Source of the DNA: Leptolyngbyaceae cyanobacterium C42_A2020_001
GTDB taxonomy: Bacteria; Cyanobacteriota; Cyanobacteriia; Leptolyngbyales; Leptolyngbyaceae
Direction of reading: 5' to 3'
NCBI GenBank assembly: GCA_015272515.1
Contig: JACYLN010000115.1
Location: 124,001 to 188,000, forward strand
Length of the DNA: 64,000 nt
A model generated the notes under the pieces. It did no database searches, was not told the DNA's origin, and saw nothing but the letters and a program-made list of their open reading frames with translations. A program made the translations under genes and the position numbers. Below are positions 649 to 38,811 of this stretch, piece by piece (positions within the stretch are counted from its first letter, which is position 1; each line of letters begins with the position of its first letter).

Positions 649-1027
649 CGCTTTTTGGGCTTGTTTATAGGGGGCTAGGGAAGGTTAAGGGGATGGAAAA
701 GATAGGGAAGATGAAGAGGATAGAGAGGGCGAGGATGATAAATTCCTTTGACCTCCTCCACTTCCTCACCTGCTCATCTCCTTTACCTTCTCCATCTTCT
801 AACTCCCCCTCCCATAACTTCTGACCTTGCCCTACCTGCATTGACCTTTCACCCATTTGGATGACCAACCCGAATGATGTGATCTGGGGTTGCTCAACCG
901 TATATTAAAAGCATTGAACTCGTTCATCTCAAAGCCAAACGCAACAGAGCCAAGAATGGCAGCGAGACGGAAGTAAGGGTAATCTCCTGAAGGAACGCGC
1001 CTCACTCTTACGCTACATGGAGGCGTT
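649..1027. other. Intergenic region with a purine/pyrimidine palindrome
   Basis: This 379 bp gap holds no convincing gene. About 670-745 is almost pure purine on the + strand, and about 752-835 is almost pure pyrimidine, so the two halves can fold back as a long imperfect hairpin (listed separately as a repeat). The last 150 bases are mixed-composition upstream sequence of the DUF4278 gene. An open frame on the minus strand across the palindrome has strongly biased composition and is not taken as a gene. Confidence 0.6.
670..838. repeat. Purine-rich / pyrimidine-rich imperfect inverted repeat
   Basis: A G/A-rich left arm (about 670-747) is followed by a C/T-rich right arm (about 752-838). 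The reverse complement of the right arm resembles the left arm in segments such as GATGGAGAAGG against GATGGAAAAGA. The left arm core at 692-706 (GATGGAAAAGATAGG) matches 14 of 15 bases in a purine tract inside menE (37627-37641). It may act as a terminator between the flanking + strand genes. Related tracts lie near 30.3, 33.0, 36.3, 37.6 and 52.1 kb. Confidence 0.6.
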
Positions 1028-36358: not shown

Positions 36359-37300
36359 ATGGGAAACAGGTTTGAGTTTCGTCCCTATATTCGTCCGTTT
36401 CGGCAACCCTTGAAGACGCATTATGGCGAGTGGCGCGATCGCGCTGGCATCCTCTTAAGATTGACGGCTGATGATGAGAGAGTCGGTTATGGTGAAATTG
36501 CGCCTGTGCCCTGGTTTGGCTCCGAGACTTTAGAGCAGGCGTTGGAGTGGTGTCAGCGTTTGCCCACAGAACTCCCTCCAGACACGATTCCTGCCATTTC
36601 TAATTCGCTGCCTGCTTGCCAATTTGGGTTTGAGTCTGCTTGGGAAGCGATGAGCACTGAGATGAATCAACCTCAACTACCCCTTAGCGCCTTGTTGCCT
36701 GCGGGGGCAGCCGCGCTTTCTGCCTGGAAACCATTGTGGAAAGCAGGGTATCGCACCTTCAAGTGGAAGATTGCAGTTGCAACACCCCTGCAAGAATTGA
36801 AGTGGTTTGAGTGTCTCAAGCAACTGTTGCCAGTGGATGCCAAACTGCGCCTGGATGCTAACGGGGGACTGACGCTTGAGCAGGCAACGGAATGGTTAGA
36901 AGCCTGCGATCGCAACACAGTTGAATATCTAGAACAACCTCTGCCACCGCATCAATTCCAGGATTTGCTGAATTTACAAGCAAGTTTTGCGACTACACTC
37001 GCGCTGGATGAATCGGTAGCAACGCTTCAGCAATTACAGCAGTGCTACGAGCAGGGATGGCGGAGTGTGGTAGTGGTCAAACCTGCGATCGCGGGTTCCC
37101 CGGCGCAACTGCGACAATTTTGCCAAACCTATTTGATTGATGCCGTGTTTTCCTCGGTGTTTGAAACCGCGATCGGTCGTCAGGCTGGATTGCGACTGGC
37201 AGCAGAACTGGGTAACCGCGCTCGCGCCGTTGGCTATGGCACCACTCACTGGTTTGAACACGATCTGCAAAAGTTTGATGCTCTATGGCAAACCCTCTAG
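36359..37300 (+). CDS. menC: O-succinylbenzoate synthase
   Basis: An enolase-superfamily dehydratase (313 residues) making o-succinylbenzoate. The expected catalytic residues are visible: KWK in TFKWKIAVAT, metal ligands in LRLDANGG, EYLEQPL and ALDESV, and the second lysine in VVVVKPAIAG. It ends 16 bases inside the start of menE, so translation is likely coupled. Confidence 0.94.
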   Translation: MGNRFEFRPYIRPFRQPLKTHYGEWRDRAGILLRLTADDERVGYGEIAPVPWFGSETLEQALEWCQRLPTELPPDTIPAISNSLPACQFGFESAWEAMSTEMNQPQLPLSALLPAGAAALSAWKPLWKAGYRTFKWKIAVATPLQELKWFECLKQLLPVDAKLRLDANGGLTLEQATEWLEACDRNTVEYLEQPLPPHQFQDLLNLQASFATTLALDESVATLQQLQQCYEQGWRSVVVVKPAIAGSPAQLRQFCQTYLIDAVFSSVFETAIGRQAGLRLAAELGNRARAVGYGTTHWFEHDLQKFDALWQTL

Positions 37301-38811
37301 CGTTATTGCAGCATCGCTCCCAGCAAGACTGGCTGATTGGTTGCAACAGTCAGGAACTTGCCGCGATCGCTCATCAAATTCATCAAACCTTGATTCAGCC
37401 GCAAGCCCAATGCGATCGCCCACTAACTATTTTCCTGGCAGAACCCGATCCTATTCGCTTCCTGGCATCCTTCATCGCTGCCTGTTCCATCCCCTGCCAA
37501 CTGTTCCTCTGTAACCCCAACTGGGCAGAGAGTGAATGGCAGCAGCTTTGGGAGATGGCGTTGCCGGATTTGGTTTTGGGGGAAGGCAGGAGACAGGAGG
37601 GTGAGGGAGGGAAGGAAGATAGAGCAGATGGAGAAGATAGGAGACAGAAGACAGGCTTCCCAGCGCAACATTTGGGAAGCGCTCAACAGGACTCAGCATT
37701 TAATCCTTCTTTCCCATCCAGCCTCTCTTCCCTATCCGCCCCATCTCCCCCCACTTCCCTATCTCCCATTCCCCATCCTCTTATCCTGATTCCCACTGGC
37801 GGTTCCTCTGGCAAACTGCGCTACGCGACTCACACATGGGAAACGCTGACCGCCTCAGTTGAAGGATTTTGCAGTTACTTTGGAGTCGAGCAAGTGAATT
37901 CTCTCTGCGTGTTGCCCTTGTATCACGTCAGCGGGCTGATGCAATTTCTGCGATCGCTACTTTCGGGCGGCAAGTTTGCGATCGCCTCCTTCAAATCCCT
38001 ACAATTCAGCAACCTTCCTCCTCTCTACCCCCCAGATTTCTTCCTCTCCCTCGTCCCCACCCAGCTCCATCGCCTGCTAACTCCTCCCTCCCCCCCTTCC
38101 CCCCTTTCCCCTTTCCAAGCCATCCTCCTCGGTGGTGCTCCTGCCTGGACTGAGTTACTAAACACAGCGCGACAGTATCACCTGCCTGTAGCTCCCACCT
38201 ATGGCATGACGGAAACGGCTTCTCAAATTGCCACGCTCAAACCAGCAGACTTTTTGCGGGGGCGATCGGGGTGTGGTCGGGTGTTGCCCCATGCCGAGGT
38301 AACGATTCAGGATGAAGATGGGCGCAAATTAGCAGCGAAGCAGTTAGGGCGGATTGTGATTCAAGCAAAATCGTTGATGTTGGGGTATTTCCCAAATGTT
38401 GAACAGTCGTCAGAGTTGGTGACGGAGGACTTGGGCTTTCTGGATGAGGAGGGCTACCTGCATGTGATTGGGCGGCGAGATGGCACGATCATCACGGGTG
38501 GTGAGAATGTCTACCCAACCGCAGTAGAGGCTGCAATTTGGCAAACGGGGTTGGTGCAGGATGTCTGCGTGGTTGGATTGCCCGATCGCGATTGGGGAGA
38601 AGTTGTTACAGCGGTCTACGTTCCAACTTCAACGGGCCAGGTGGACGAGTTGAAAGCCGCGATCGCGCCGTTGCTCAGCCGTTATAAACATCCCAAACAC
38701 TGGATCGCGGTCAAGCACCTTCCCCGCAACGCTCAGGGCAAACTTAATCGGTTAGAGGTGATGCGGCTGCTGTCTGATTATCGGCCCAATGATGCAACCA
38801 CTCATGCATGA
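37285..38811 (+). CDS. menE: O-succinylbenzoate-CoA ligase MenE with a palindrome-derived insertion
   Basis: An acyl-activating enzyme that makes the CoA thioester of o-succinylbenzoate. The P-loop-like motif ILIPTGGSSGKLRYA (near residue 171), YGMTETASQIATL and GRRDGTIITGGENVYPT are intact. Residues about 98-168 form an insert that is first Glu/Lys/Arg-rich (EGGKEDRADGEDRRQ) then Ser/Pro-rich (SSLSSLSAPSPPTSLSPI), encoded by a purine/pyrimidine palindrome. A second Pro/Ser-rich stretch (LTPPSPPSPLSPF) lies near residue 268. The 508 residues exceed typical cyanobacterial MenE by about the size of the insert. It converges with the thioesterase gene with a 68-base overlap. Confidence 0.92.
   Translation: MANPLALLQHRSQQDWLIGCNSQELAAIAHQIHQTLIQPQAQCDRPLTIFLAEPDPIRFLASFIAACSIPCQLFLCNPNWAESEWQQLWEMALPDLVLGEGRRQEGEGGKEDRADGEDRRQKTGFPAQHLGSAQQDSAFNPSFPSSLSSLSAPSPPTSLSPIPHPLILIPTGGSSGKLRYATHTWETLTASVEGFCSYFGVEQVNSLCVLPLYHVSGLMQFLRSLLSGGKFAIASFKSLQFSNLPPLYPPDFFLSLVPTQLHRLLTPPSPPSPLSPFQAILLGGAPAWTELLNTARQYHLPVAPTYGMTETASQIATLKPADFLRGRSGCGRVLPHAEVTIQDEDGRKLAAKQLGRIVIQAKSLMLGYFPNVEQSSELVTEDLGFLDEEGYLHVIGRRDGTIITGGENVYPTAVEAAIWQTGLVQDVCVVGLPDRDWGEVVTAVYVPTSTGQVDELKAAIAPLLSRYKHPKHWIAVKHLPRNAQGKLNRLEVMRLLSDYRPNDATTHA
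37577..37787. repeat. Purine/pyrimidine imperfect palindrome inside menE
   Basis: Purine-rich arm about 37577-37652, a 50-base spacer, and pyrimidine-rich arm about 37704-37787. The layout and the core GATGGAGAAGATAGG (37627-37641) match the intergenic palindrome at 670-838. The 211 bp are read in frame as about 70 residues. Confidence 0.65.

Follow-up and report, generated by a model that had tools for sequence, protein, structure and literature searches.

The window analysed here, a stretch of 64,000 nucleotides from Leptolyngbyaceae cyanobacterium C42_A2020_001, carries on its forward strand (37285..38811) the menE gene for o-succinylbenzoate--CoA ligase (508 aa), identified by ORF, Pfam, PDB and structure matches. 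The protein gives the Pfam domains AMP-binding (6e-30) and AMP-binding_C, it matches MenE 5x8f in the PDB (E=9e-43), the invariant motif columns are present in an alignment with 37 homologues and, insert aside, it has the ANL adenylate-forming fold with its conserved motifs. The insert comprises ~68 residues (~98-165) and is located between the N-terminal ..PDLVLGE and the ATP-binding motif ILIPTGGSS, where the initial annotation had counted about 70 extra residues; in the shortest homologues this slot takes just 23-30 aa. At the DNA level a purine-rich arm (37577..37644, forward strand, 40-nt windows at least 90% purine), which covers residues ~98-120 and reads EGRRQEGEGGKEDRADGEDRR, is followed by a spacer and then by a pyrimidine-rich arm (37713..37787, forward strand, assigned from sequence), which reads PSSLSSLSAPSPPTSLSPIPHPL and holds inexact direct repeats (37713-37736 and 37740-37763). 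The whole insert is free of stops in the menE frame, as had been stated for both arms, and one of its peptide stretches reads GFPAQHLGSAQQDSAFNPSFPSS. The units of the purine arm are degenerate (periods 7 and 9, 3.2-3.3 copies, ~80% matches), and a perfect tandem array of the STRR type was not seen. A second pyrimidine-rich stretch of menE (38013..38130, forward strand, residues ~243-282) falls in a second variable slot, in which G005-group relatives have repeat-like inserts of ~14-55 aa.

The AlphaFold2 model of MenE (37 sequences) reaches a mean pLDDT of 85 and superimposes on B. subtilis MenE (Z=35.1 over 443 aligned residues, with an rmsd of 3.2). Residues 106-155, located between two strands of the confident fold, fall below 50 pLDDT, the flanking blocks being mostly above 83. 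Since these residues are predicted to be disordered inside a confident fold, the insert is expected to form a floppy loop, with the rest of the fold intact.

The description of the insert as a palindrome held for the layout and failed for the pairing. The same order of purine arm, spacer and pyrimidine arm is present, as had been noted, in an intergenic element at 670..838, recognised by sequence and given no strand. Pairing of the menE arms scores 46 by Smith-Waterman alignment vs 37.5 +/- 5 for shuffled sequences (p=0.058), and folding against shuffles gives z=-0.8 for DNA and z=-2.0 for RNA; a strong hairpin in the menE insert was rejected. A scan of the window with Rfam returned no RNA family at the menE insert; the sole match was a glutamine riboswitch aptamer (RF01739, 49 bits, 919-1001, forward strand), which lies close behind the intergenic element and directly upstream of a small ORF starting at ~1029.

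It had further been proposed that the insert is an intergenic-type repeat that entered coding DNA and is tolerated as a linker, and this proposal is partly supported, tolerance as a linker being probable, by evidence other than that originally offered: the spacer module, the related in-frame modules in ~20 other genes and the predicted disorder. The match of 14 out of 15 bases between the core of menE (GATGGAGAAGATAGG) and that of the intergenic element (GATGGAAAAGATAGG) is literally true; at least 14 matches are, however, reached by 15 of 500 dinucleotide-shuffled tract pairs, so that it lies within chance for purine tracts and was dropped as proof of homology. The arms alone are likewise unspecific, and the similarity of purine tracts is partly compositional. 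The informative part, overlooked by the initial annotation, is the spacer, in which positions 37646..37685 (forward strand, reading QKTGFPAQHLGSAQ) are a diverged version of a 67-bp module (AGGAGTCAGGCTTCCCAGAGCGACATTCGGCGAGCGCTCAGT...) that is dispersed in the genome. In the own-genome search these 40 bp align with it at 83% identity (E=9.1e-5), a modest match of a diverged copy, which counts against the reading preferred below. The search of the genome for the element, which had been recommended, thus yielded six other copies of the module at 96-100% identity and several partial ones, and complete copies occupy both intergenic and genic positions. In MenE the peptide QKTGFPAQHLGSAQQDS shares the reading frame of QESGFPERHSASAQSSRQP, which occurs in two other ORFs. 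No match of the module was found in the two other genomes of the genus (G001 and G002) at E<=0.001, its sole strong match outside the own genome being that in G011 (94%).

Across the genome the purine-spacer-pyrimidine layout is commoner than chance would give. Within 845 kb of own-genome sequence, adjacent opposite tracts within 200 bp occur in the order purine-pyrimidine 24-28 times and in the reverse order 1-4 times (24:1 to 28:4 according to the threshold used, with p from 1e-5 to 1e-6), whereas an order-4 Markov control gives 0-1 of each; G002 has the same preference (14-19 vs 3). Since tracts are 3.4x denser between genes (19.7 vs 5.8 per 100 kb in these 845 kb, the gene calls being those of a simple script based on codon scores), this class is mainly intergenic by density, yet it is not excluded from genes. 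Among the longer ORFs of the own genome, one of 2447 aa, TPR-like by eye (contig C127:1872-9215, L135), harbours, besides several purine-pyrimidine elements, one complete in-frame copy of the 67-bp module, and another of 1287 aa, MetH-like by eye (C89:117794-121657, L125 and L126), contains two intragenic purine-pyrimidine elements.

Related modules are found in frame in ~20 other protein genes of the own genome. The consensus insert peptide GEIQNSKFGSADSPEAKIPFGSTQGEQNSPTPQSPI occurs 24 times there, three times in G007 and not at all in G001 and G002; DnaX, RecJ and PyrB have a SADSPEAK stretch in common. Its hosts named by Pfam comprise DnaX, RecJ, MutM, a SIS protein, an ABC transporter, an IPMS/HMGL-like enzyme (hereafter IPMS-like) and GH116; the hosts named for related modules are PyrD, MutS2 and GNAT ORFs, and histidine kinases are also among the Pfam-named insert hosts. 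PyrB and LysA were identified from sequence and confirmed by ortholog alignments, and a CbiA/CobB-like host was identified from sequence alone. The inserts interrupt recognised domains: the N-terminal domain of MutM and domain V of MutS2 are each broken into two stretches, and the PyrD domain of 290 positions is stretched across 380 residues (Pfam). MutS2 (C119, L306) has two inserts, one of them immediately before the Walker B stretch LVLLDEVGAGTDP. Repeated modules are present inside single inserts, e.g., in PyrB, MutM and PyrD. Most insert folds lie near z 0, and within the own-genome family a strong hairpin was seen in the inserts of PyrB (z -2.6) and PyrD (z -3.1) alone.

Comparison with relatives reveals the presence or absence of individual copies. 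The second LysA insert (~81 residues) is absent from G002 (..GLENSE|SLLFPT..), the IPMS-like insert, which consists almost of the core module alone, is absent from G002 and G011, where the slot is short, and the PyrB insert is replaced in G002 by a different, shorter one. Since the element at 670-838 is missing in G002 behind the same upstream gene, intergenic copies turn over as well. No clean target-site duplication was detected vs G002 at the LysA, IPMS-like and PyrB sites, where a DNA identity of ~80% could hide a short one, and the own-genome family has neither fixed ends nor defined terminal repeats. A fresh insertion with exact borders in menE, which had been envisaged along with such duplications, does not agree with the slot being occupied in each of the three same-genus genomes (the own genome, G001 and G002). 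The pyrimidine arm of menE aligns with that of MenE in G002, the nearer relative (SSSLSSLPPPSPIPHPL), and in G001 the middle of the insert is related (QESGFDVSAQPN). Because the slot is filled across the genus and the arm can be aligned with G002, the MenE insertion probably predates most of the family and was rebuilt internally.

Among ~48 relatives the length of the MenE slot is variable and its content is often made of lineage-specific repeats, some relatives having inserts at two further places. One more MenE slot, the third, lies at ~residue 372; the long inserts that occupy it in G005, G021, G037 and G039 (L061, L062, L066 and L067) have a GGLGELGPQ peptide in common and are apparently another dispersed repeat. 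In G036 the MenE slot is occupied by a true palindrome of ~130 bp with fixed ends (DNA fold z -6.6), which has ~40 copies of ~80% identity in that genome; of 21 copies inspected, the three that lie in frame belong to MenE, CbiD and an aldehyde-dehydrogenase-like protein and share the peptide LNPPFW..SKSP..GGLRGQKP. In G007 the slot contains AAAATTC-type repeats with 44 matches in the genome. Slots with both tract types at >=85% follow the purine-pyrimidine order in 12 of 12 cases (80 other loci, mostly from Nostocales and Oscillatoriales, and the window); in a first set of relatives, with tracts at 80%, the ratio was 10 vs 4, and the exceptions belong to other palindrome families. The slots of PyrB and the IPMS-like enzyme behave like that of MenE. 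Judged from these alignments, the MenE slot has repeatedly served as a sink, in which many lineages carry different repeats. Its content differs among relatives; an insert conserved in distant cyanobacteria had been named as the finding that would speak for an old protein feature.

The length of the MenE slot varies in nearly all cyanobacteria, in many of them without clear repeats, and the arms show short tandem units. Both observations would also suit an ordinary, fast-evolving disordered linker, grown by slippage of low-complexity codons, in which the purine/pyrimidine look is coincidental. This explanation is improbable, as the menE spacer matches a dispersed module that is not tandem, that module sequence recurs in unrelated genes of one genome, unrelated proteins carry the same peptides, the order of the tracts is near-exclusive and the G036 slot contains a defined element of ~130 bp in ~40 copies. 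Slippage may well contribute within the arms, which could still be its products.

A dispersed repeat could also have been retained for what it adds, and the orientation and location of the copies are the observations to be weighed here. The PyrB insert, used as a frame-blind DNA query, gave 56 matches in the own genome; among the best 30, all have the same orientation and 26 lie within ORFs of >=200 aa. The core modules, scanned in the 845 kb without regard to frame, are genic in nearly every case, and the one core site called intergenic falls within an ORF of 387 aa that has an NQR2/RnfD domain. This preference for coding sequence in one orientation, together with the presence of DNA-repair and biosynthetic enzymes among the hosts, might indicate that the inserts have been selected for a regulatory or other function, acting in mRNA structure or protein interaction, and are not tolerated repeats. 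However, in all 18 inserts measured the host frame has 0 stops, whereas the other frames total 10, 45, 76, 64 and 37. Because the other five frames hold these 10-76 stops, the orientation and frame bias is mostly explained by purifying selection, although the coding preference of the core modules may, in this small sample, exceed the effect of selection alone. As the slot content varies between relatives, and the MenE insert has no predicted fold and only weak RNA/DNA structure, selected additions are very unlikely. Also very unlikely is that the insert is removed post-transcription or skipped by the ribosome, as in the bypassed palindromes of some yeast mitochondria (a precedent cited in PMC6649704), which would give a protein without the loop and would suit inserts within essential enzymes and even catalytic domains, but would need no open frame.

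The preferred reading, to which a probability of roughly 85% is given, is that menE has taken up what is now a decayed copy of a dispersed, composite repeat, translated as a tolerated unstructured linker, in a slot of the kind that is hit repeatedly by unrelated families. The composite would consist of a purine arm, core modules and a pyrimidine arm, with one reliably stop-free frame, in which it could be read in menE and the ~20 other protein genes. Its spread may have been selfish or due to passive copying, and it may have grown through insertion of one repeat into another, as the repeated modules in several inserts suggest. Copies would survive where the host protein offers a permissive surface loop; translated as an unstructured linker that the enzyme presumably tolerates, they would leave the fold intact. 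Other filamentous cyanobacteria have repeatedly received unrelated repeat families in the same slots. No mobilising enzyme could be linked to the repeat family by a search for Y1 transposases in five genomes: the REP-type (Y1) transposase was considered as the driver and rejected, being present in 5/5 genomes, yet with a copy pattern that shows no link. In the own genome the four good copies each contain an internal TGA and two others are divergent or partial, and G036 has just one; 42 matches, mostly of identical scores, were found in G002.

Mobile repeats thus appear to add floppy loops to essential enzymes. A broader proposal, that filamentous cyanobacteria harbour frame-locked coding repeats, almost confined to coding sequence in sense orientation, which have invaded housekeeping enzymes in waves after the species split and reuse permissive loops across genera, so that mobile DNA would regularly supply the phylum with new protein loops, is tentative and stands at somewhat less than even odds. 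If the preferred reading is right, a photosynthetic bacterium shows repeats of the kind of the Rickettsia palindromic elements (RPEs) in genes of DNA replication, repair, and pyrimidine, lysine and quinone synthesis. Relatives refilling the same loops independently would allow comparative tests of how well enzymes tolerate repeat insertions, and the inserts would serve as natural maps of permissive insertion sites, useful in protein engineering. For annotation they are a warning, as such inserts may pass for ordinary linkers.

Several classes of small repeats invite comparison. Filamentous cyanobacteria have very small, high-copy and nested dispersed repeats, and heptanucleotide STRR repeats of cyanobacteria have reportedly been described in connection with RNase P RNA by Vioque (1997). 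The arms resemble STRR and G-rich heptamers in their 7-9 nt units, G/A-rich or AAAATTC, and in a notable genic fraction. GGGGA(C/T)T heptamers in Nostoc PCC 7120 are 68% intergenic and about a third lie within genes, with few inverted pairs, and the accessible part of that report does not describe in-frame insertion as a class (Rehm, 2015; PMC4692102). Unlike those repeats, the arms here are paired in purine-pyrimidine order, flank a core and are in frame in named enzymes. MITEs (Correia, ERIC, Nezha) are small and non-autonomous and may fuse to genes in frame. The own-genome family differs from them in having no defined terminal repeats and no target-site duplication seen, whereas the G036 element, a true palindrome with fixed ends, is nearer to them.

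In the full-text literature outside subscription papers no account of repeats invading cyanobacterial enzymes in frame was found, and such invasion may be new. The nearest precedent, likened by description, would be the RPEs (Ogata, 2000, 2002; reviewed in PMC10969869 and PMC2229807) together with the protein-coding repeats of Wolbachia (Ogata, 2005, as cited in PMC2229807), which were reported after the title of Ogata (2002) had termed protein-coding palindromes unique to Rickettsia. Like these, the cyanobacterial repeats are ~100-250 bp long, dispersed and also intergenic, and they lie in frame in many unrelated conserved genes with one open frame and a recognisable common peptide, as the 24 peptide copies and ~20 genes illustrate. 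A strong stem-loop of the RPE type is present in the G036 element (z -6.6) and, PyrB and PyrD apart, absent from the own-genome family (menE z -0.8). Unlike RPEs, the cyanobacterial family is made of degenerate purine/pyrimidine arms around core modules with a weak hairpin, and the protein slots that it occupies are reused across genera by unrelated families.
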